64,000 nt of DNA from Scilla litardierei (lineage: Eukaryota; Streptophyta; Magnoliopsida; Asparagales; Asparagaceae): contig CM061142.1 of the NCBI GenBank assembly GCA_030789695.1, forward strand, positions 605,997,659 through 606,061,658, given 5' to 3'. The position numbers and the translations under genes were made by a program. Below are positions 33,611 to 55,787 of the stretch, piece after piece. The stretch's first letter is position 1. Each line of letters opens with the position of its first letter. Under the pieces are notes generated by a model, which saw only the letters and a list, made by a program, of their open reading frames with translations, did no database searches and was not told the origin of the DNA.

Positions 33611-33640
33611 CATGATAACATCCCTGTTTTATAATATAGA
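33611..33640 (-). other. Second, internal Helitron 5' terminus
   Basis: The 30 bp at 33611-33640 are identical to the Helitron 5' end at 46952-46981. The base beyond is T on the plus strand, so this copy also has A before TC. It would let a 6.3-kb Helitron (27316-33640) use the same 3' end. Confidence 0.8.
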
Positions 33641-35214: not shown

Positions 35215-36685
35215 TCATAGCAGAACTTCTGGGTAAACGATGTTTACTGTGTTATTTATGTTGGGCTGAAGAAGGACACATACACGATCAAAAGATGTGC
35301 ACCTTGAAAGTGCAACATAAAGATGTCCATGACTGAAAACTGGGGTCCGCAAATCAACTCCAACGAATTTTACAGATTGTCCTTGGGCTTTATTAATCGT
35401 CATAGCATATGTCACACGGACAGGAAACTGCCTTCTTGTCATATGAAAAGGTAATTCTGTAGCCGATGGTGACAAAGATATTCTTGGAATAAACACAAAA
35501 CAACCGGCTTTATCCCCATTTAAAATTTGAGCTTCAATGACACGTGATGCACATCTGACAACCATCAATCGAGTGCCATTGCAGAGCCCGTCTTTTGGTG
35601 CAATATTTCGTAATAAAATAATATGACAACCAACCTTAAGCTCAAGTGTAAATTGTGGCAATCCAGGAGGATCCAAAGAGTTTATGTACTCAGTTGGATA
35701 TCTATTCATAATGGTTGGATCGGTTTCATCATTTTCAGAAAAACTGTCTGCAGCTTGATACATAATCTTCTGTCCCAGAAAAATGTTTAATGCAGCAGCA
35801 TTTATAAAAGTAACATCATCATTCCGTGCAGAAAGAATTATTCGTTCAGTAAGGTATGCCGGAGTCACGGCACCCTCAATATCAAGCTGCGGATAAATTC
35901 GAAGTATTAACTCGTTTAAATCCTTGCACCTGAATATGTTAGAAGGAAGTTCTACCACTTCTGTAGGATTTGTCCCAACCTAATACATATAGATATAATT
36001 TTAGTTAAGGAATGGCTAAGATAAAAATAGTAAGTAAAATTAAATTAGGCATGAAATAAAATACCTCCAAAATAAATTTTGCAAAATTTGCATTCTCAAC
36101 AGATGAGTTATATAACCGCATATTTTGATCCAAGATCAAAACTTGTACAGAGCACCATAATACAGATCGTCTCAATGAGGCACCAACAATTTCTTCTCGA
36201 ACCCCCTTTGGTATGACGGGCAAGATTTGTCGGAAATCCCCACCAAGAACAACAGTAATACCACCAAATGCTCTGGGGTTATCACACATATCTTGTAACG
36301 ATCGATCCACTGCCTCAACACAGTGCCGATGTTGCATATGTACTTCATCCCATATTATAAGTTTTGCTTTTCTGAATAATTGAGCTTGCATGGATTGCTT
36401 GCCAAAATTACAAATTGAAGTATCATGCACATTTAACGGGAGACGAAATGTGGAATGTGCAGTCCGACCTCCGCTAAGTAGCAATGATGCAATACCGGAA
36501 GACGCGACGGTGATAACTATATTTCCAAGACTACGCAACATTGTTGCTATTGCATTGTACAAAAAAGTCTTTCCAGTTCCAGCACCGCCGCTCAAGAAGA
36601 ATGTAGTACATTTATTTTCAAATACTGATGAAGTAATTACTGAATAAGCATTGCGTTGTGCATCATTGAGGCAATCAATGTCTTT
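35215..36685 (-). pseudogene. Helitron Pif1-like helicase domain
   Basis: It continues the Rep frame after a single TAA near 36685: [17 protein letters not shown] then the Walker [14 protein letters not shown] (about 36560-36598), Walker B region [31 protein letters not shown], and QNMRL. An 85-bp intron (35980-36064) separates these from the C-terminal part with [33 protein letters not shown] and LYVALSRC, ending at 35215. These are superfamily 1 Pif1 motifs in order, all key residues present. It unwinds DNA during rolling-circle transposition in the nucleus. Apart from the stop, the helicase looks complete. Confidence 0.93.
35980..36064 (-). other. 85-bp intron in the Helitron helicase
   Basis: The reverse strand reads GGAG/GTATTTTATTT ... 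TGTATTAG/GTTGGGACA. Splicing gives [18 protein letters not shown] in frame, with no loss of residues between motifs; unspliced there are stops. Confidence 0.82.
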
Positions 36686-39605
36686 TTATGCATCCAATTG
36701 TTTCACTTTATTTATAAGTTCCTGATGTTCATGCAACAATCTATTGCCAACAATTGCATTCCAATCTCCAGCAGGAAGTGGCATTGGTGGAAAGTCGGAT
36801 AGACACTTACCGTACTCCTCAAGCAATTCATTGATAAGGAATAATCCATAATCTTCAAGTTGGCCTTGAGTTGGGGTAGAAATTGCAAATAAAGTTTGCA
36901 ATTTATATGGAAGATCATCGCAAATGTGCATTGAAAATTCATTCCATAATGCAAGGGGGTCGATCAGCACACATTCGATAAGAATAATACAAAACAGTCT
37001 TCGTAATTGATATCCTGTTTTCATAATTGAAGCCTCGGAAAGACATTGTCTCCACTCGGAATCATCTTCAAGAAGACCTCTTGCAATACATGTTGCTTTG
37101 AATGTAGGGTACTCGATAGAATTGAATGTGCGTAAATTTTCCCACGATGTTGGCCCTTTAACAACTGTTAGTAGCAACCGTAGATAAAATCTCTCACCAG
37201 AATTAGGGGAGGCAAAATACATTCTGCCAATTGCATATCCAGATTGTCTTGGAGTCCAGACCTTTGTTGACGAATGCCACACAAACTTTTGGCGAAATTC
37301 TTGATATGTGAGATCATGTGTAGACTCATGTAAAGCGCAACATGTAAAAAATTCAGTCAAAGTTGTCTTATCATTTTCAGCCCTAGACCTTATTGCATCT
37401 ACATCTTCATCTGGATCAAAAATAACACGGTGTTGCCCTGGTAAATGAAGTATCAATCTTTGAACTGACGGAATCTCTTGATGCAAAGGATGCTCAAATA
37501 TTTGCCATGCAGCCTCAGGTGGTCCAATATATCTTGCATCAAGGTATTGTTGGATCTCATTTACTGCGCCCAATACCATTGTGGTCCGATCATGACCTTT
37601 ATAATTATACTTATGAATGTACTTCACACATCTGACCCCGACACAAACTTCGACATTAATGTGGCAGTTAAAGCGCCTTGAGAGATACCTGTTGTGCGGC
37701 ACAACATCTCGGTTATCAACCTGATGCCCCCTTACAATATATAGATGCCCATTACTACAACGACGGTAAATAGGATATCCATCACGATCCAAGGTTGTTG
37801 CATCTGCATAATTTCGAGGGTATTTCTTAGTACACTTACCATTTTCCATACATGAAGCATTTGGATTCCGAGCACCACATGGTCCATGTACCATACATTT
37901 TGATACAGTATCGAATAATGCAGGATCTTGAGCAGGATCAGGAAATTCAGCACATACAATTCTATCCACTTGATCACATGTATGAATCTTATCGGGTCCA
38001 CGAAGAAAGAAAAGAGCATGCATATGTGGAAGACCCCGTTTCTGAAATTCAATTGTAAATACATGTGCTACTTTCTTTCCAAATACATTATTGCCATCAA
38101 TCTCCTTCATCAAAGCCTTTCTTTTTAACTCAAATACACGTGCGACTAAATCTGGACGGTCGGTAGCCTTTTGATTGGGCAGTAGAGCCGAAGTAATTTC
38201 TGGCCACTTTGGATTTGCGGTCATGGTAAGAAAAATATCTGGGTGCTGGTTATAACGTGTGATAGCCATCGAGTCTTGAAATATTTCAAACATGTGACGT
38301 GCACTGCCAGTGAAAGATGAAGGAAGTATCATGCGCTGTCCAATTTGGTCGCATCTGGCATATGCATCGATATCTGCAAGACCCTGATAGAGCTCTGAGC
38401 GGAGTTTTCGTTGATTAAGTTTGATGAATGTCAAACGATGTTGCTCAATTGCTGCCCAAGCATCAACTATGAACTCCTGGAATAACTTTCCAGCTCTCAA
38501 AATTGAAGAATACTCGTTCTGTCTTTCAAACAGACGGTAGCTATAAAACTCACACATGGTCAGGCGTCTACTTGAGGATATGTTTTGAACTGGATCCCAC
38601 TGCTTCAACTCAGGTTCCCATCCAAGCTGACCATCAGGAAATAATAAGACGTAGTGTAATGGTAAGTATGCAGGATGAGCCTCATTGATTTGCATTAATT
38701 GATGATTTCCTCGAAGATGTAAAACTATATCTCGCATCCCGGAAGGTCGATAGCCATCGCCAGGTAAAATAACCGCAATCTCATCTACGGTTGGGAGGTT
38801 ATAACGGCGACGATCCTTGGTTGAATTGTAATGCAGATATACAGGAAGATCATGACCACATGAATCTGCTTGAGATAAAATAGAATACGCCTGACAATAT
38901 AGTTTGATGAATGGATTTATGCCCGATAAACAATTTTGAATAATTTGTAAGACATCCTTGCTCAAATGTGGATTTCTATTACTTCGGAACTCCATAGCAG
39001 AATCCGGATCATATATGTAAAGTTGACAATAACTTACTGTTTGATCCGGTTGGGGCAGAAGTGATCCTGTTCGATGGCGTAATTCTCCATGAATAGTAAA
39101 TATGTTCGGGCCTCTGCCAGCAATCAATCTTTGATCCATTGTCACACCAAGGCTGGTAAATGCATTAGCTGCATTATACTCCCCAGTATACATTCGAAAT
39201 GATTTTAATGCCTCACTGTCACCATCATATAATTCTCAAAGTGCTGGAGGGGGTTCATTAAGTTTCGGAAATTTTACTTTTCCTTGCAAACAACATGTTC
39301 CAAAAAGATGTGTTCTCAAAGTTGACTTCGACAGCTGTTCATCCAACCAGTGTAATGCTGAATAATGAGGGCATGGAATGTTCATTAATCCAAGATGGTG
39401 CCGACCAAAATCAACCTGAGTTGGTGGACCAGAGCCATGCTGAGTTGACCGACATCGGAGGATCGAGGATGAGCCAGCGTCTTCTTGTTCAACTGGAGAA
39501 GTTGTTAATCCAGGTGTTATTTGAGGTATACAAATAGGAGTCATATATCGAGATATGTTTCGTTGAGCTTTTTCTCGTTCTCTCCTTTGACATTGAGCTA
39601 AACAC
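36686..39605 (-). pseudogene. Helitron Rep (HUH endonuclease) and N-terminal domain
   Basis: The exon starts at 39605 after GGCTAG with one more copy of the array peptide (LAQCQRREREKAQRNIS). Next comes the zinc-like Helitron N-terminal box CPHYSALHW...FGTCCLQGKVKFP, a TGA at 39236-39238, then an 835-residue open stretch: TGEYNAANAFTSLG, the Helitron-like N domain (YNQHPDIFLTMTANPKWPEI), the HUH motif GLPHMHALFFL (about residue 389), and the double-Tyr motif KYIHKYNYKG (about residue 525). It ends QLDA-TAA at about 36685 and then runs in frame into the helicase. Rep nicks and joins single strands at the element ends. Two stops (TGA, TAA) are the only lesions I see. Confidence 0.93.
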
Positions 39606-39680
39606 CTAGCCAAAATAAAACCATAATAATTAAATAAAATTAAGTTACATTAAAGTAGAGGAGCTCTTATGAATAATAAC

Positions 39681-41286
39681 CTGGCAGATGGTTCATCATC
39701 TTCAGCACATATCGTATCGTTGTGCGAGGCTGAGACCTCATCTACATGTTCAACGGGAGAAGTTGGTACTGCATATGTGCTTTGAGGCATGTCGAGTACA
39801 CTGGTAGGAGTCATATATCGAGATGTGTTTGCTTGTATTTGTTCTCGTTCTCTCCTTTTGCGTTGAGCTAAAGCCATATACAAATTTAAACACAAAAATA
39901 AACACAACTAAAATACATTGCTTGGTGAAAAGGTTTTATGTACAGTCGGGTTGATAATGACCTGACAGATGGTCCAGGAACTTGTCCGGAAATCATATCG
40001 TTACGCGAGGCCGAGACAGACTCTTCTTGTTCAAACGGAGAAGTTGTCACGGCTGGTGTTATGTGAGGTATATCAAGTACACCGTCAGAAGTCTGAGCGT
40101 GAGATATGTTTCGTTGTTCCTGTTCTCATTCTCTCCTTTTGCGTTGAGCTAAAGCCCTATACAAATTTAAACACAAAAATAAACACAACTAAAATACATG
40201 GCTTGGTGAAAAGGTTTTATGTACAGTCAGGTTGATAATGACCTGACAGATGATCCAGAAACTTGTCCAGAAATCATATCGTTCCGCGAGGCCGAGACAG
40301 ACTCTTCTTGTTCAACCGGAGAAGTTGTCACGGCTGGTGTTATGTGAGGCATATTAAGTACACCGTCAGAAGTCAGAGCGTGAGATATGTTTCGTTGTTC
40401 CTGTTCTCGTTCTCTCCTTTTTCGTTGAGCTAAAGCCCTATCCAAATTCAAACACAAAAATAAACACAACTAAAATACATGGCTTGGTGAAAAGGTTTTA
40501 TGTACAGTCGGGTTGATAATGACCTGACAGATGGTCCAGGAACTTGTCCAGAAATCATATCGTTACGCAAGGCCGAGGCAACATCTAATTGTTCAACCGG
40601 AGAAGTTGTCACGGCTCGTGTTATTTGAGGCATATCAAATACACCGTCAGAATTCAGAGCGTGAGATATGTTTTGTTGTTCCTGTTCTCGTTCTCTCCTT
40701 TTTCATTGAGCTAAAGACCTATACAAATTTAAACACAAAAATAAACACAACTAAAATACATGGCTTGGTGAAAAGGTTTTATGTACAGTCGTGTTGATAA
40801 TGACCTGACAGATGGTCCAGGAACTTGTCCAGAAATCATATCGTTACGCGAGGCCGAGACATCATCTTCTTGTTCAACCGGAGTAGTTGTAACGGCTGGT
40901 GTTATTTGAGGCATATCAAGTACACCGTCAGAATTCAGAGCGTGAGATATGTTTCGTTGTTCCTGTTCTCTTTCTCTCCTTTTTCATTGAGCTAAAGCCC
41001 TATCCAAATTTAAACACAAAAATAAACACAACTAAAATACATGGCTTGGTGAAAAGGTTTTAGGTACAGTCGGGTTGATAATGACCTGACAGATGGTCCA
41101 GGAACTTGTCCGGAAATCATATCGTTACGCGAGGATGAGACAGCATGTTCTTGTTCAACTGGAGAATTTGTCATGGCTGGTGTTATGTGAGGTATATCAA
41201 GTACACCGTCAGAAGGCAGAGCATGAGATATGTTACGTTGTTCTTGTTCACGTTCTCGTTCTCTCTTACTGCGTCGAGCTAAAGCC
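39681..41286 (-). repeat. Tandem array of six 195-201 bp exon-like units at the Rep 5' side
   Basis: Units on the reverse strand: 41286-41086 (201 bp), 40999-40805, 40718-40524, 40437-40243, 40156-39962 and 39875-39681 (each 195 bp). The five spacers between them are each 86 bp, so the period is 281 bp. Units begin after TATAG and end CTGTCAG/GTCATT; each holds 65 codons with one base before and two after (AG|G), so joining any two keeps the frame. The peptide is about ALAQRKRREREQEQRNISHA then a MPQITPAVTTSPVEQE stretch. A seventh copy starts the Rep exon at 39605. Units at 40156, 40718 and 40999 have CGA-to-TGA stops near the start; the unit at 39875 has ATAT in place of ATAG at its acceptor. 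Confidence 0.85.
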
Positions 41287-44200
41287 CTATCCAAATTAAG
41301 CCCAAACTAATTACAATTAAAATACATTATTAGCGTATATCAGATGTTCATATTGAGAATATGGTAGATGTTCAATTAAAATACTCCCAGTTTGAAATTG
41401 GGTGAATATGTTCATTTTGAGAATGAACACTCCCAGTTTCTAATTGAGAATTTCAGAATTTGAGTAGTTATTGAACTTCAATGTCAAATGCACAAATTCC
41501 ATATCTTCAGAAATTTTAGAATTGCAAATTACATGAGAAATATTCCCAAAGTATACTCTTCTGAAATTTGAGAATTTCAGAATTTGAGTACTCAAATTCC
41601 ATATCAATAACTCAAATTTTAGAAGAGTATACTGCATGAGAAAAATTTGAATACTCAAATTTGAATTTGGGCATTAGAAAAATTCAAGTTCAAAATTAAA
41701 TTCAATTTCAAGTTCAATAACTCAAATTTCATTTGATAATTTAATGTTAAGGTCAACATTTTTCTTATATCATCAAATACCATAGTTCAGTTTAATTTCA
41801 TGTTAAACTCAAATTTCAGAAGAGTTGAGGTGCAACATTTTCTCAAGTCATTCTCAAATTTCATTCTCAAAATTTTGCACCAAGCTCATTAGTTTCAAAA
41901 TGGATATTGACAAATGAAAAATGAAATTGCAGAAGAGCCCTACTGAAAAATGAAATTTCAGAAGAGCTAGCTTATGAGAAATCTGGTTAAAATTTTTGAA
42001 GATGGAATTTGAAGAACCAAATTTTGAGTTATGTGACACAATATATCCAATTTTGAAGGGCATTAAGTATATCCAAGTTTTTAACCAAGAAACAAATTTG
42101 AAGATGGTAATTTGGTATAACAAAAAATGAACACAAAATTTTGGGTTTAATTCTTTTGAACTCAGTATCCAACTAATTCAACATATTTCAGTTCTCACAT
42201 AACTCAAAATTTGGTTCATCTTCAAATTCCATCTTCAAAACATGAAGAACACAAAAAAATTGAACACATAATTTGGTGTTTAATTCTTTGTTTTGGATGC
42301 AATTTCTTTTCTTTGCTGAATCCTGACAATTCAACATTTTCTGAACTTTGTGTTTTGGATGCAAATGTTGAATGAAGACATTTGCTGAACTATGCAGTTC
42401 AGCAATGATATTTGAAGACAAATTTTGTGTTATGTGAGTTGTGAGTAATTGACTGAAGGAAAATGAAAAATGCCTATAAAATAAATGAATATAAAATAAA
42501 TGGATACTATGTCTTGTTAATTAACTTGGTATGAAGCCAAAACAGTTAATTAACTCATTTCAGTGTCCTGTTAATTGTATTTTACAGTGTCAAGTAATTA
42601 CCCTATAACATGCTCAAGCAAATACACATGGAAATAAATTGTTGAATACTTGCAAGTATAGCAATACCCTATAACATGCTCAACTATATTTTTGCAAGTA
42701 TAGCAAATACACATGGAAATAAATTTATTTCATTGTCCTGTTACTTGCATATATTCTCAAACTCAAACTCACCAAGGTTATTATCCATAAATATGATTTA
42801 TAGAAATTGTGTAATGTTAATAATACATTGAATTTGGCATGCAAGATTGATGTATTTTCAATAAATTTTCAAACTATTGAGTAGGACTGATGAGAAATAC
42901 CTTGGCCCACAAGCTTGATGTATTTTCAAAGTAAAGTGTTGAGTTCTTCAGATTTTTGCAAAACTTTCTCAGTTAGTGGAGGGTGATATCCATGATTAAT
43001 TTGTCCTGCAAATATTTAAACCAAAATCATGTAATTGCTATTGAATTGCAATGCAATCATTCAACTTAAAATGAAATCAATATTAAGCATTCAGTCCAAT
43101 GTTCATTCTTCACTGGAATTGATATCAAATGTACATCTAATTAGAGAATCATGTCAAATGGCAAACAAAATAACTCATATACAGTTGAGTCCATGGCTAT
43201 TTCCAATAATAACTTTCAAATGTCCTGTCAAATTAATGTGAACATATACATTGCTAACCAATAGTGTCCTGTCAAAGATTTTGAACAGGACAATTGAATG
43301 TCTAACCATGACAGTCATTTAAGTATGAACATTCATTCATTGAATGTCAATGTGCAAGATTGTTGAATAATAAGCATATACATTTGCAAATTGCTAAACT
43401 ATGTCAAAGATTGTTGAATAAGAAGTTGAGTATCCTGTCTATTCAGTCCAATGACCAAGATTTTGAGTCATGTATATGACAATTTGAGGCCATGAATTAA
43501 GTTGAGTATCATGTCTGTGGAAATTAAGTAAGTATGAGTCCAGGATAATCAACTTTTGACAATTACAACATAAGAACACACAAAAACAAACAATATCATG
43601 TGATTGAGGAAATTTCCAGTTTGCATATGTCCTGGAAATTTCCAGTTGATGCAAACTAACATGTCCAGTATCTCCTCTCCAAGGAAATTTGGTTATGTGT
43701 ATTATTTGAGGATGTTTTTGGATAATATATAATATATAAGCCTAAAATCATAATTGGGGATCCCCAAATTATTATTTGAGGATGTTTTTGGATCCAAGGA
43801 AATTTCCAACTATTATTTGAGGATGTTTTTGGGGATCCCCAAGTATTATCCAAAAACATCCCCAAATTATTATTAATATTAGAAGTGATCCAAGGAAATT
43901 TCCAAGATAATATATAAGCCTAAAATCATCCTCAATCCTGTCATTGCTAACCAAAATTAGTTTCTGTTGCTTTGGACTAAAAATCATCAATCCTGTCATT
44001 GCCATGAATTTGAGGAATTGGGGAAGACAAAATAACTCATATACATACCCAAAGGTAAACAGATCAACAAAATTTCCTGATTGAGGAAATCATCAAATTC
44101 ATACCCAAAAAAACATTTCAGACATGCTCATAGTTTTTTTTGTCCATTGATAATCATTTGAAATGTTTTTTTTGAAATGCATTGCCATCTAATGGTAATG

Positions 44201-46951
44201 TGATTTGTTTGAATCCTGGCAAATTGATTTGAATAGCAGGACAATGCCATTGATAATCCTGGCCAAATGATAATGTGAAGTGTATTCATTTAAAAAAATG
44301 GACTGAAATGTTTTGGCAATGCAGTGTCATGTGAAATGATTTGTTTTTATCACATTGTTTGAAATCCTGGAAATGGCAATGCATTTCTGAAATGAATTTG
44401 CCAAACTATCACATTGTTTGAAATCCTGGCAATGGCAATGCATTTCTCAAGGTTTGAAATCCTGGCAATGGCAAATTCATTGTTTGAAATCATGACAATG
44501 CATTGCCAGGAATGCATTGCCATTGCCAATGCATTGTCATTGCCAGGATTTCTGAAATGAATTTGAAATCCTGGCAATGGCAATGCATTGTCCTGTGAAA
44601 TGACTTGATTGAAATCCTGGCAATGGCAATGCATTTCACAAACTATTAGTAGGACAACTCTAAACATTTGGCATTTTTATCTAAATGAAAATCAGTTGCC
44701 ATTTTTATCTAAATGGATTCAAACTCTTACCCAAATGATAATGTGAGACTAAATTTCAAACTCTTACCCAAAACCAATTGCACCAAATTACACATATTGA
44801 ACCAATTGCACCAAATCATTTTATTGAATGAAAATCATTTCAGGATAGTCAATTTAGTTTAGCATCTATCCTATATTTATTTTAGCAGTTTCAGTATTTA
44901 GCAGGTTTTAGCCATTGGTTTGCAATACATATGAAATAGAATATTGACATTCCTTATATCATTTTTGATAACCCAAAATTCTCTATTTTTGATAACCCAA
45001 AATTCTCTATTTTTGATAAACATAGAGAAGGGATAAACAATTTTGCATATGAAAAAAACAATTTTTTGGGTCCTGTCAATGAGAATTATAACAACAGAAT
45101 AATTGAATACATAATGCAAATCATTGGCATTCCAAGAAAATTGACATTGAACTCAAATTATCAAAGTATCATTTTAAATGCAAATGAACTCATGGGCATT
45201 CAAATTATCAATTTATCAATTTATGCAAATCATTGTCCTTGTTTTTTTGCAAACATCTCTATCCAATTACAAACATCTCTATCCTGTCAAGCTATACACA
45301 GAGAAATGATGCATAACAATAAAAGCAAGCTCATTCTTAAGTAATATAAATGATTCATAACCACCAATTCTCTTATCCAAGCAACTTGCTTTTATGGTTA
45401 TCCATTACATAAGCAATTCATCATGATAGCAATTTCAGGTTATCCATTATATTTATGTAAGAATGATCTATTATCCAATTACACATAACACCCAATTACA
45501 CATAAACATAACACCCAATTATATGTGTAATTACACATAAATTCAGCCCTAAAATGAGTGAAGCAATGACATGATTAGTGTTGTGACAGGATTTTGGAAA
45601 TTTGCATGAAAGTGTCCTGTTAAAAAAATAACCAAAATGAAGCAAATCAGCAAGCTCTCGTCCAACATAAAAATTTTCATGAAAAAATTAAAAAAATCAT
45701 CAAGCTCTGATCAAGCTCTTATCAGCAAGCTCTTATCATTAACAAATTAATAAATTCATATTAAAAAAATTTTCACAGGACACTGTCATGCAAAAATGAA
45801 GAGCGTATCAAAATGAAAATTTTTGAATATTGCATAGAGAATTTTGGGAATATTGCAAAGAGAATTCAGTTATTCAGTTATTTTTGAATATGAAAAAAAC
45901 AATATTGCATAGAGAATTAACATAGAGAATTGATAAACATAGAGAATTGGCATTCCTTATTTTTGATATCATTTTTTATAACCCAATGTTTAGAATTGAT
46001 AAACATAGAGATTAGAATTGTTTTTGGGTCCTATATGTTATTCAGTTTAACATATGAGAAAGTAGAGAATTCAGTTTAACATAATGCTAATCAACAGAAT
46101 ACATAATGCTAATCATCCAAGCTCATCCATTCTCCTATTCCATAATGCAAAACAGCAAACTCACCCAGCGTGGAGGTGGAGAGGAAGTGATGAAGCTCTC
46201 AAGCTCTCAAACTCAAACTCAGCAAACCGTGGAGAAGCTCAAAGCGCTGCAATGGGGGGGCTCTGCTCGATGTGCTTACTCTTCGTGATAATTGAGGTAG
46301 AAGAATAAGAGGGTGATCTACGTGAGGTAGAAGAAGATGGCGTGGGTGATTTGATCTGAAACTCAAAATCAAAATTCTCTATGTTATTCAGAAGAAGCTG
46401 GAGGTAGAAGAAGCTGGAGGTAGAAGAAGCTGAGATTAGATGCGCTCTCAAACTTAAAATCAAAAGCCCAAACCTTTCCCTCACAAATTTTGATCTGATA
46501 TTGGCGTGGGTGATTTGATCAAAAAACCATTCCCGCCCTAAAGTTCCCTCAAAATGTTGATGTGAAGAAGCAAACGAAAAGTTTGAATTCAAATTTTTTT
46601 TAAAAAAAATGAGAGGAATGAGAAGCTGTGTGATAGGAGGTGATGTGATTTGAGGGAAATTAAAAAAAAAATCATCATATCATACCCTTACCCTATATAC
46701 AAACTATCATACCCTATTTAAATTTTTTTTCAAAATTCATTATCTCCTATCTCAATTTCTCATCATACCCTATATACATCTATCTATATAAACATCACAC
46801 CAAATTACACATAAACAAAAACAAATTCTCATATCCATTATCTCTTATCCATTTTCTCTTAACCAAAATCTCTTATACAACAATACACATATCCACATAC
46901 AACAATACACATAACCAATATCTCTTATCCAATTTCTCTTATCCAAAAACA
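41287..46951. other. Long AT-rich 5' region of the Helitron
   Basis: No protein domain is recognised on either strand. It is rich in short repeats: GAATTTCAGAATTTGAGTA words (41440-41660), GAGGATGTTTTTGGAT inverted and direct copies (43700-43870), AATCCTGGCAATGGCAATGCA (44340-44640) and TTTTTGATAACCCAAAATTC (44960-45015). Reverse-strand CT/GA-rich text at 46170-46590 may be the leader of the Rep gene. An exon upstream of 41286 is implied by an acceptor there but was not found. Confidence 0.6.
44340..44640. repeat. CCTGGCAATGGCAATGCATT repeat cluster
   Basis: At least six copies of GAAATCCTGGCAATGGCAATGCATTTC in direct orientation, plus an inverted copy around 44510-44555 (GCATTGCCATTGCC), so the region can fold on itself. 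Confidence 0.8.
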
Positions 46952-46981
46952 CATGATAACATCCCTGTTTTATAATATAGA
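46952..46981 (-). other. Helitron 5' terminus
   Basis: The reverse strand starts TCTATATTATAAAACAGGG and is preceded by A (plus-strand T at 46982). Identical over 30 bp to 33611-33640. Confidence 0.88.
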
Positions 46982-49900
46982 TATATGGGTATAATTACAT
47001 ATTTGATATGTGTATATTTTTCATGTATTTTGGGGCTTTTTCCATAATTTTAAAACCATTATAATAATATTTGTTATAAACATAATATGTACTCTCCTTA
47101 TATATAGTACTTGATATACTATGTGGATACTACATGGTATTACATGTAATAATACTTGTTTTAATATTTTTCTAAAAATAAAATTTTAATTTTTCCTCCA
47201 TTGCCACATCTTAGCCATGTGTCATCTTCCTACTTAACCCCACCACACCCCCAATCACACGGAGAAGGAGGCTAAGATTGGAATAGGAGAGGCTTCATTT
47301 GAGGTAGGAATTTACAACTCAATGAATGGAGAATATTATTCTTAAACTTGTTGTATACATGCCTTAATTCTTAGCAACATGATGATTAGTTGTAATAAAT
47401 GTGATGTTAATTAGAGTTTGTATATTATCCTCAAACATGATGTTAATTTACATGTGGTTTCAAATGCTAAAAATTGTACTTGATTGTTAATTTAAAGCTT
47501 TGTGTAAGTTTACTATGTGTCATTAATCCATGATTGAATGTTTAACTTGAAAAATAATATTTAAAATGAAAATGGAGTTTAGCATGGAAATGGTGTTTAG
47601 CATGAAACAAATAATGATTAGCATATTAACTTGTCCTATTAACTAATTATGTTGCATATTATATTATGATCCCTGCCAAGATATTCTACATGCCCATGAT
47701 GTTAATTACAGCCACATGACAATATATTAATTGTAGCAAAGGCCATGTTCCATAGACCAAGTCCATCATGATATTTTAGTATGTAATATTAATTATATTA
47801 TGTCAAGAATGCCTTGTTTCACCATGCTTCATGTTCTAGCTTCATGCCATGCCATGTTTACACCATGCTTCATGTTCTAGCGTCATGCCATGCTATGTAT
47901 ATGTCATGACATGTTTACACCATGCTTCATGTTCTAGCTTGATGGCATGCTATGTATATGGCATGCCATGTTTACACCATGCTTCATGTTCTAGCTTCAT
48001 GCCATGCCATGTATATGTCATGCCATTTTTTACACCATGCTTCATGTTCTAGCTTCATGCCATGCTACGTATATGCCATACCATGTTTACACCAGGCTTC
48101 ATGTTCTAGCTTCATGCCATGCCATATATATGCCATGCCATGTTTACACCATGCTTCATGTTCTAGCTTCATGCCATGCTATGTATATGTCATGCCATGT
48201 TTACACCAAGATTCATGTTCTAGCTTCATATCAAGCTATGTTTATGCCAGCCATGTTCTAGCTTCATGTTGTGTTCCATTTAATTGTGATCAAGCCTCAT
48301 ACATATGAGATGGCAAGTAGGATATTCATGGGGAGAGTATGAATAGTATTTATAACATTGTGACAACCATGATGCAAGTGGTAGTGCGTTGATGTTTCTT
48401 TATGCAGATGGGTCCCATTATATTACCATGTCGAGGATGCTAGATTTATATGTTAATTTTTGTTATTCTCCTTATGCATGAAATGATGTTATTCTAATAA
48501 TGTTATATTCATACAAGTAATGATGTTCATTAAGCAAGTAATGAAGTTATGTATTCAGTGTTTCATTTCATTATAAGATTTTGATGACATATTACATGTA
48601 ATAGTTGTGATTAAATGCTGGCTATGGAACACTGACATTAATGTGATCGTGGTGGCATACGAATTGATGCTAGGGGTGGTTATGACCACATGAATACTGA
48701 GATGATGGACATGATCAATTTCATTTTGAATGAGGACACGAGAGTATCATAATAACCTAGATATCTCGATCTACCCCAAGGTAGGTGAGTTATTCCAGAA
48801 ACGAGGTTTGGGAAAAACCGAGAAGGGTATGCACATCAAGAACTGGACTAGAATTGATTTGTATCTCACTTGCACTCCCGGCAGCCGGCAGCAGGAGTTG
48901 GGAAGAGTTGGAGAGGCCTATGGGTGTACTCGTGATGCACCATGAGGTATACGCTGTGTATGATATGATATTCTCACTCCCGAAATGGGGGATTTACGAG
49001 AGGCCCCGTCAAAATTGATCAGTGCTTATGTTCCACTGGCGGGGTACCATTTTTCCACCCACCATGGGTGAGGTCCAGAGCCTTATGCATTACATCTTAC
49101 CCAAGATTCCAAAGCGTTATTTTAACTATAACAAGAATAACTATGCAATTACTGCTTGATGACCTATTCATTTAATTGTAATAGTTTGGTTACTTTTATG
49201 CCCGAGTTCATCATATGTTCCATTCTGACTTTATTTACTTTCTTTTATTGCAGTATTTCAATTACCTCCATGCCTAAGAATAGTGCTTGATTCTATTTCT
49301 ATTAGAGCTTCTTTTATGCTACCTTTTATTGTCATATGTTTCCTCCCTGTTCATAACTATTAATTTGTATAGCTTGCCCTTAATTTTCCTAACATAAATG
49401 ATGATGATCTAGTTGTGATATAACAATGTTAAAAATAGTATCCCACTTCTAAAGTTGTGTTTTCTTACTGGGCACACGTTGACGTGTCCGCCCCCTTTTT
49501 CCAAGGTTAAAACCAGAGACCCCGGAGTAGCTTTTTCCCCGGAGATTACACATGGCTGGTCTTCCTCCTTTTTATTTATGAGAGTGAGTTGTACTTATTT
49601 CGGGGTGTAAACTTTTACTTGTGAGAACTAGAACCTCTGATGTATTTTTTCTTGCTTTCAGATTTCTCATGTATCTTCTGTGTAACTTCAAATGTACTTT
49701 TTGAAACAGATAAATATATATGTATATATTTTGCGACTCTGTGATTTTTCTTTAATTTGAAGCATATACATTATTTATTTAATATGTCATCCATATTGTC
49801 ACAGTATACGCAATGACCTGCAGGATTTATATCATCATACCACATTTACGTTGGGTAGTATTTAGAGTCAAAGGATTAAATCATTGAGTCTAAATACTGC

Positions 49901-53463: not shown

Positions 53464-55787
53464 ATGGCATCCAACAACAACAACGTTCCTCCGCCGACTT
53501 CGTATAACAATCACGATCGTGATGGAGCGTCCACACTTTTCGAAGGTCAATCTACGGTACGTCCTCCACGTTTCAATGGCACTAACTTTGGCTATTGGAA
53601 GTGACGTTCCTTAGGAGTACTTCACTTTGGAGAACCCTCCACAAGGAGTACGTCGAGTCCACCGAAGAGGATTTCGAAAAATGGACGTCTTCCGAGAAAT
53701 CCACCGAAGTCAACAATGCACAAGCAATGAACGCTCTTCATTATGCGTTGGACACGAATGAGTTCAATAAGATATGCACATGTAAGAGTGCATATCAAAT
53801 TTGGAACCATCTCATCGTTACCCATGAGGGAACGAATAAGATAAAACTCTCAAAGTTATATGTTGCCGTGCAAAACTTCGATTTGTTTCATATGCAGGAA
53901 AATGAGAGCATTGCATCGATGTACGGATGCTTTACTGACATCACAAATGAATTGGAACCCCTTGGCCAAACATACACCGAACCTGACAAGGTAAGGAAGA
54001 TCATCATGGGAATGACCTCCAAATGGGAAAAGAGAGCAATCGCCATCGAGGAGGTCAATGATTTGAAAAATTACACAGTTGTGAATCTTATCAGGACTCT
54101 CATGTCTTATTAGGTAAGACGAGAGAACCGATTAAAGATTCGAGCTATGATAAATCCTTCGGAGGCCAAGAAGAAGGCTTTAGCATTCAACGCCAATTCA
54201 TCATCCTCCCATAGCGAAGATTCGGAAGATGAGATGGATTTGGGTGAAATGGCCCAAATGGCAAAGAAGTTCCAACGCTTCTTTCGCAAAGGTAAATTTT
54301 ACTTAAAACAAACGATTTGAGTCTACTAATGCTACTTCCTCTCTTTGCTTTAAGTGTAATAAGCCAGTGCACATCAAGAGGGATTGCCCAATGCTAAAGA
54401 ACAAAGAGAAGTGGAAAGCTCCGAAGTACCACAAGTCCGACAAGAACAAGAGAGACAAGAAGAAAGGACTCGTAGGTACATTCGATGACTCAAGTGAAGA
54501 ATCATCAAGTGATTCCGATGATGAGAAGGGTGAGAGCGCTCACATGTGCTTCATGGCCCGAGATGATTCACTCTTCGATGAGAGTGATTCCAACACGGAT
54601 GATACCGAGGTAACAATGGATGAACTTCGTATTGCTAATGATGAATTATTTGCTAAATATCAATCTTTAATGCTTAGATATACTAGCTTAAAGAAATCAA
54701 ATGTGAGCAAGTCATCCATTCCACGCATTATCAACAATGACACCATTGTTGATACTTTAACTCTTGAGAAAGCAAACTTACCTTCTCAAAATTGCACTTT
54801 GAGAGATGAGGTGAATAACCTCAAATCTCAACTAGATCAAACACACCAACGGATAATAGTGATCTAGTCACACGTACACACAATTGGGTTTAGAGAATGA
54901 TTCTCTTAAAACCCAAGTGCACGAGCTCAAAGCACGAGTGTCCACCTTGGATACCAACATTTCTTCTCTAAAGGAGAAATATGAGCTCATGTCCTCCCGT
55001 ATTGTAAGATTCAATAAGGGAAAATGACAACTGGATGATTTGCTTGCAAACCAATTTCCGGCCACACATCGTGTTGGTCTTGGTTTTGTAAAAGCAAATG
55101 CATCCAATGATCGCACCTCTTATAATGGTGTCACTATATATTTTGTGAGGCCTTCCTCCGGTGCATCCACAAGTGGTGTCAAAGACACTATATGTAGCAA
55201 ACCTACCAAGAAAGTCACCACTTCACCTTCTCTTCCTTTTGGCAAGAAACCCACTAAGGGTGGAAACCAAAAGAGAAGTCATGCTTACATGTACACTAAC
55301 ATTCATCCACGTAGGAAATCTCCTACTTCACAAGTGAATAATCATGACACTTTTTATGACCACACACACGGACACGTACAAAACCACACATGAGAAATAC
55401 TCATGTACGTGCTCCTATACACCCGTATGCACATGCGCATCATTCTTACATGTATGCTCATCCTCCACATGTCATGCATGATTCATATGCTTCATTCAAC
55501 ATGCATGTTCCCAAGCATACATATCATTCTCGTATGTCATATGCATATCCGTCACCACATTTCTATGCTAGAAACCATGTTCCTAAGAAGCATGCACCAC
55601 ATAGAAATCTAACAAGTATGCATGAAAGTAGGAAAAGGACTCCCAAAACATACACCATTTGGGTCCTAAGAATACTAGCCTAAATGATAGGAATGCTTAT
55701 GTTGGTTCCTATTTTCATTATGCCATTAATAATGATAATTATGTTGGGAAGCGGAAGTCCACTTGGACTTGGCTTCCAAAGGGCTAA
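53464..55787 (+). pseudogene. gag: Gag of element F
   Basis: The ATG at 53464 starts MASNNNNVPPPTSYNNH and reaches PPRFNGTNFGYWK before a stop; the frame changes near 53610. The UBN2 domain follows (NNAQAMNALHYALDTNEFNK, ICTCKSAYQIWNHL) to 54110, where TAG ends the ORF. Zinc knuckle CFKCNKPVHIKRDC at about 54345-54390, an acidic Ser/Asp stretch, a Leu/Asn coiled coil (54610-54990), the LDDLL box (55035), then a His/Tyr-rich segment (55380-55610) with VPKKHAPH, and the end TWLPKG-TAA at 55787. This matches SIRE-type Gag. At least five stops or shifts. Confidence 0.9.

Follow-up and report, generated by a model that had tools for sequence, protein, structure and literature searches.

Tandem exon duplication is familiar from host genes, where duplicated exons of symmetric phase, each with its intron, can change in number without shifting the reading frame. 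Among Helitrons, the closest described systems come from wheat and rice. The wheat transposase FENG8 is active, with experimental support, and the accessible part of its description gives a gene of seven exons by RNA sequencing (RNA-seq), an HUH nuclease, two tyrosines, a superfamily 1 (SF1) helicase and insertion at AT, and, apart from two helices, its first 264 residues are predicted to be disordered, a zinc-finger-like motif lying beyond them (PMC13286980). Lowered DNA methylation combined with heat stress is reported there to activate a Helitron family of wheat. For the rice Mothra Helitrons, the available portion of the paper reports blocs of six direct repeats; their number differs from copy to copy, which is attributed to unequal crossing-over or slippage (PMC4683698). 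The locus described here lies in 64,000 nucleotides of the Scilla litardierei genome (contig CM061142.1, positions 605,997,659 to 606,061,658 of the forward strand; "the window" denotes this whole stretch), in which a Helitron carries on the minus strand a gene for Rep and helicase (RepHel), preceded by a tandem array of exon-like units. These repeats are probably a tandemly duplicated coding exon of RepHel that lengthens the N-terminus of the protein; we infer splicing and translation from the DNA sequence.

Structure of the repeat array

The array lies on the minus strand between 39605 and 41286. Recomputation confirmed the coordinates and sizes of the original prediction, namely six units of 195 base pairs (bp), one of them 201 bp, with a period of 281 bp. 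The first unit has 201 bp, the next five 195 bp each, and a seventh is fused to Rep; units start at 41286, 40999, 40718, 40437, 40156 and 39875, and unit 7 at 39605. Tandem Repeats Finder called the repeat with a score of 2451 at period 281, and the array is therefore not due to chance. The array comprises the following features, the length of unit 7 being set at 195 bp for comparison.

41086 to 41286, minus strand: unit 1, exon-like, 201 bp, entered and left in phase 2
41000 to 41085, minus strand: intron-like spacer 1, 86 bp, GT...AG
40805 to 40999, minus strand: unit 2, 195 bp, with a TGA in the window copy that is common to relative L010
40719 to 40804, minus strand: intron-like spacer 2, 86 bp
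40524 to 40718, minus strand: unit 3, 195 bp, with a TGA stop in the window copy
40438 to 40523, minus strand: intron-like spacer 3, 86 bp
40243 to 40437, minus strand: unit 4, 195 bp, open
40157 to 40242, minus strand: intron-like spacer 4, 86 bp
39962 to 40156, minus strand: unit 5, 195 bp, with a TGA stop in the window copy
39876 to 39961, minus strand: intron-like spacer 5, 86 bp, ending in AT instead of AG in the window copy and in L010
39681 to 39875, minus strand: unit 6, 195 bp, of an older type that has diverged to 72-75% identity with units 1-5
39606 to 39680, minus strand: intron-like spacer 6, 75 bp, dissimilar to the 86-bp spacers
39411 to 39605, minus strand: unit 7, diverged, continuous in frame with the Rep exon and lacking its own donor

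Every unit is in phase 2 at both ends, as had been claimed, and the seventh copy joins the Rep exon in frame at 39605. Since the period of 281 bp is not a multiple of three, the constant phase counts for reading the units as exons. The spacers moreover carry a stop in the continuing frame, so that one protein could arise from the units only via splicing; the predicted join between units runs from ...CTGTCAG to GGCTTTAGCTC, and so on in series up to unit 7. Donors are all GT, and acceptors are AG except for the AT of unit 6. The predicted spacer length of 86 bp holds for five of the six; the sixth has 75 bp and is 45-49% identical to the others. Between units 1-5 and unit 6 of the window, exons are 72-75% and introns 45-49% identical, and the exon part has thus been better kept over this older divergence, with units 6 and 7 still in frame after about 25-33% divergence. 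The array accordingly shows neighbouring homologous exons with the same phase on both sides and introns of their own, the features that define tandem exon duplication.

In the mechanism that we propose, each unit would bring a 65-codon exon of phase 2/2 and its own short, AU-rich intron, so that any number of units would stay in frame and skipping a unit would leave the Rep frame intact. Unequal recombination or slippage would alter the number of units and would also homogenise them within a lineage.

Unit lengths and unit numbers across the genome

The host assembly (3.68 Gb, 7,266 contigs) was searched with the full 1,682-bp array. All 40 scored candidates, the window included, matched over the whole or nearly the whole length at 95-100% identity; they were taken best-first from 1,109 candidates and thus give a minimum in which six-unit copies are favoured. 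A donor-junction pattern (up to 2 mismatches) found 2,969 genomic matches versus 2 for the reversed control, and the acceptor junction of the Rep-fused unit 7 (up to 3 mismatches) found 640 versus 0. The quotient (2,969/640) corresponds to some 4.6 main-type units per Rep, a rough value, given the unequal mismatch limits and a donor pattern that misses unit 6. The array is real and part of a high-copy Helitron family. That the units are an artefact of assembly, or a tandem duplication that arose by chance in this one copy, deserves virtually no credence, and with both sets of junction matches spread over many contigs and all 40 scored candidates matching the array, it was discarded.

The original prediction had proposed counting units per related copy in the same genome. 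This was done, and the number varies between three and eight main units. Among 22 arrays on contig C1, five main units occurred in 13, four in 6, three in 2 and eight in 1; these counts are minima, taken from the first exact donor match, and five of the 13 five-unit arrays share one tandem block and cannot count as independent. The 22 were the countable ones of 29 C1 clusters among the exact matches listed, the other 7 being dropped for want of a listed exact unit-7 match nearby. The 23 relatives (numbered with L) compared below were picked from matches to the six-unit query, so that six units are expected in them.

Two further arrangements were observed on C1. Between 73063369 and 73140379, five arrays lie in the same orientation at spacings that alternate between about 18,674 and 18,984 bp, a tandem block of whole Helitron-containing segments that possibly formed as a rolling-circle concatemer or by segmental duplication. 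In one copy, two exact unit-7 junctions stand 397 bp apart (C1:7149946 and C1:7150343), and the fused unit 7 itself may also have been duplicated there.

If the repeats are coding exons, their lengths should respect the frame, whereas a non-coding tandem bloc would be free of this constraint. Under the main alternative to a duplicated coding exon, Rep would begin within unit 7, at an in-frame ATG (...SRYMTP...), and the tandem block upstream of it would be untranslated; the block would have arisen and would change by slippage as in Mothra, with unit 7 reflecting a block seeded from the first exon of the gene. We consider this unlikely, although it has to be weighed seriously, and variable-number tandem blocs are indeed known from non-autonomous Helitrons, as far as the available text goes (PMC4683698).

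The length classes argue against such a block. Among 100 listed exons in the range of 180-210 bp (1,038 matches), 96 had either 195 bp (77) or 201 bp (19), and in the range of 216-246 bp all 10 matches, at nine places, had 243 bp; in L038 the 243-bp exon arose as 48 bp within it were duplicated in frame. Introns of 70-100 bp, by comparison, shift by one base, with 86 (83), 85 (15), 84 (1) and 98 bp (1) among 100 listed of 1,318. The listed lengths are the first in contig order, a non-random set that includes related copies. Within the ranges searched, recurrent length classes respect the frame in exons and not in introns, so that freedom from frame constraint is not what exon and intron lengths display. 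Related repeats that vary in length without a multiple of three had been named beforehand as a finding that would overturn the prediction. Within the length ranges searched this refutation failed, the recurrent exons having 195, 201 and 243 bp, each a multiple of three, and the recurrent introns 85 and 86 bp. Together with phase and unit-number variation, these classes uphold the description of the array as exon-like units that keep the frame and stand at the beginning of a Helitron Rep gene. A codon-level test alone would leave a non-coding tandem bloc possible.

Units also appear to be turned over within lineages. In the bulk lineage, units 2-5 differ by exon distances of 0.02-0.03 among themselves versus 0.053-0.064 to their counterparts in the window lineage; within copies of the window lineage, unit distances are 0.04-0.08, no smaller than between lineages. 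In a unit tree (13 of 62 inner branches well supported), units were placed partly by copy, as with units 2 and 3 of L009, and partly by position, as with unit 1 and with unit 4 of the window lineage. We read this pattern as homogenisation by gain, loss or conversion of units, clear in one lineage.

Coding constraint, encoded module and decay

Selection was assessed on lineage-fixed differences that separate the window lineage from the bulk lineage (13 copies), leaving out L019 and L020. For Rep, the ratio of nonsynonymous to synonymous substitution rates (dN/dS) was 0.15-0.21, with or without two intermediate copies, so that Rep was a selected coding gene. Differences per base were about four times more frequent in the array exons than in Rep, and the synonymous rate of these exons was 0.031, above the 0.014-0.019 of Rep; introns 1-5 had a rate of 0.014. 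Between the same units of the two lineages, nonsynonymous over synonymous differences were 1.6-3.4 in five copy pairs, against about 3 expected without selection.

The predicted splice donors are invariant: GT was unchanged in all 252 cells from 21 copies, against an expectation of about 4 changes (binomial P 0.014). The base composition of L021 is 30-31% guanine plus cytosine (GC) in introns and 47-48% in exons, and plant introns require low-GC (AU-rich) sequence. The invariant donor, the frame kept in units 6 and 7 and the in-frame 48-bp duplication all speak against an untranslated block.

Several results, on the other side, weigh against a translated exon array, and those at the codon level are what such a block would lead one to expect. 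The dN/dS of the array exons is 0.55-0.88 on 24-33 fixed differences and not clearly below 1. Units 1-5 compared with unit 6 gave 0.61-1.19 in five copies (L006 being frameshifted in unit 6), and comparison with the first 26 codons of unit 7 gave dN at least equal to dS in nearly every case. Purifying selection between units, considered as a further argument for coding, is unsupported by these values and was set aside. Among units 1-5 of the window, exons vary in 40 of 195 columns and introns in 7 of 86 (P 0.009), the exons thus being more variable than the spacers, again as the untranslated block has it. The acceptor AG was lost in 6 of 252 cells, similar to the background of 1.7% in intron interiors. 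The donor CAG|GTCATT deviates from the usual plant consensus. A search for spliced unit-unit junctions, as in a retrocopy, found 0 at up to 3 mismatches, which is not decisive, and a common upstream start exon, sought in the upstream alignments of copies, was not identified. Four of the 100 listed exons measured 184, 188, 193 and 194 bp, each a single case, and unit 6 of L006 lacks one base. Absence of stops is weak as an argument for coding and was dropped as proof, as neutral simulation of 40-60 substitutions left no stop in 21-31% of trials. On the whole, the duplicated coding exon is supported by the genome-wide behaviour of lengths, with weak backing at the codon level, and judged from these substitution patterns the array resembles a coding segment that evolves fast under weak constraint rather than a conserved domain.

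The encoded module was aligned over four units of the window, giving 17 invariant positions that include RERE and SPVE. AlphaFold2, run on a small unit alignment, placed a helix at residues 2-21 followed by coil, with a mean predicted local distance difference test (pLDDT) score of 63, and according to this model the remainder of the module is probably disordered. Pfam searches with four L021 frames covering the array and early Rep returned nothing convincing (best E 0.064). The module would therefore be described, tentatively as to its role, as a basic, Arg/Glu-rich helix some 20 residues long and then a flexible Pro/Thr/Ser/Val linker, and successive modules would extend the transposase on its N-terminal side, before the HUH nuclease. 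An in-frame ATG is present in 125 of 126 units from 21 copies.

The stops claimed for three units are present in the window, where units 2, 3 and 5 have TGA at a place occupied by CGA or CGC in other units, and the one broken acceptor is likewise there, AT for AG at unit 6. A further claim, that alternative inclusion of these units acts as a regulated switch deciding whether full Rep is made, is very improbable. Symmetric phase would make skipping harmless, and the unit-2 stop and the unit-6 acceptor are common to the window and L010. However, the array exons are stop-free in 17 of 23 relatives (the others, L007, L008, L010, L017, L020 and L026, have one or two stops); acceptors, one or two per copy, were lost in L010, L011, L014, L020 and L022 (unit 1 in L022), in different units in different copies; and Rep itself is broken in the window by in-frame stops at 39236-39238 and 36686-36688, in addition to the three array stops. 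The switch was rejected, and the stops and broken acceptor of the window are decay and no family feature. Among the long relatives L009-L028, 16 of 20 lack an array stop, and the Rep and helicase frames are stop-free in five (L015, L016, L022, L023 and L025), all of which have stop-free arrays.

The window and L010 have four derived sites in common, at 40986 (the unit-2 stop), 40229 (intron), 39876 (the unit-6 AT acceptor) and 35624 (helicase), and their 5' contexts differ despite these shared damaged sites. Five derived sites are common to the window and L009, and eight to L010 and L011. Copies are thus mosaic, and the sharing may stem from transposition or conversion; by one route or the other, damaged array sequence was handed on at least once.

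The Helitron, its upstream stretch and known systems

The remaining parts of the element in the window are as follows.

46980 to 46981, minus strand: 5' terminal TC of the Helitron, TCTATATTATAAAACAGGGATG, with A before it; the element runs to lower coordinates
41287 to 41841, minus strand: conserved non-coding core upstream of unit 1, shared over a length that varies by copy
36008 to 39604, minus strand: main open frame of RepHel, with Helitron_like_N (HUH-type LPHMHALFF, two-tyrosine KYIHKY) followed by PIF1
35218 to 35979, minus strand: second helicase open frame, with Pif1_2B_dom

Assignment to Helitrons is borne out by the Rep domain (Helitron_like_N, E 7.7e-56), by the helicase 3' of Rep (PIF1, E 5.3e-74; Pif1_2B_dom, E 1.7e-16) and by the 5' end, since homology between L029 and L030 begins at A|TCTATATTATAAAACAGG with different flanks, placing the 5' TC next to A. 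The strings LPHMHALFF and KYIHKY, which we take to be the HUH and two-tyrosine sites, are both present in the window copy and kept in 16 and 18 of 20 relatives, respectively, L014 and L020 being frameshifted in this survey. The 5' motif was found in 6 of 8 upstream stretches, absent in L034 and inexact in L036.

A Helitron 3' end (CTRR with a subterminal hairpin) was not found; homology of the RepHel core to L021 ends at 33640 in the window, and homology of L018, L022, L025 and L027 to L021 reaches the end of the fetched stretch. Exactly where the core homology to L021 stops, at 33640 on the minus strand, lies a second Helitron 5' end (TCTATATTATAAAACAGGGATGTTATC) with an A|T junction, which has the appearance of a Helitron inserted later; no 3' end was found for it either. 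Just outside the 5' end of the main element, a 57-bp tandem repeat occupies 47844-48257 in 7.3 copies, also with a 172-bp period. Open frames at 53586-54867 presumably resemble Ty1/copia-type gag.

Elements with six-unit arrays have moved recently, as seen from L029 and L030, which lie at two chromosomal places and are 99.96% identical inward from the 5' TC, and from L021 and L023, whose downstream parts are 99.98% identical. The stretch between 5' end and array (41842-46900) differs in kind between copies, as compared in L029-L036: one class comprises L029-L031 and L035, L032 and L033 match it only at the 5' end and in a block of about 450 bp, and L034 and L036 have little upstream sequence in common with other copies. 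Homology upstream of unit 1 starts at 42265 in L009, at 41841 in L010, L012, L013, L021 and L028, and at 41662 in L015, and in L019 only about 100 bp ahead of unit 1 match other copies. From these alignments, it is as if the upstream stretch had been repeatedly exchanged or captured.

Gene capture is a known property of Helitrons. The array might accordingly serve as a landing pad for splicing, its same-phase acceptors letting any upstream promoter or first exon, for instance a captured one, read Rep in frame. This idea was raised because the upstream stretch varies, no shared start exon was found and the in-frame ATG is near-universal; we regard it as quite doubtful, but if it were true, Rep expression would be robust to gene capture. 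More generally, the array may tie the exchange of Helitron 5' sequence to a gene architecture that tolerates it.

If the duplicated exons are spliced and translated, the N-terminal length of the transposase would be an evolvable, copy-variable trait set by a tandem exon array. With members of three to eight main units in one genome, one could compare directly how the number of modules affects transposition, nuclear import or DNA binding.

A survey of titles and abstract openings from part of the matching literature found no tandem exon array in a Helitron Rep, a weak negative. The element resembles wheat Feng8, as described in the accessible part of that report, in HUH nuclease, two tyrosines, SF1 helicase, multi-exon gene, long N-terminus and AT insertion, and by analogy the position of the array fits the disordered N-terminal region of FENG8; the same part of the report mentions no repeated exon array for Feng8 (PMC13286980). 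With Mothra it shares direct-repeat blocs of copy-variable number in a Helitron, but Mothra is non-autonomous and its blocs are not described as RepHel exons in the text available (PMC4683698), whereas here they stand in frame ahead of Rep in a RepHel-bearing element. Unlike tandem exon duplication in host genes, the repeated units here belong to a transposon's own replication gene, and their three to eight main copies vary between members of the family.

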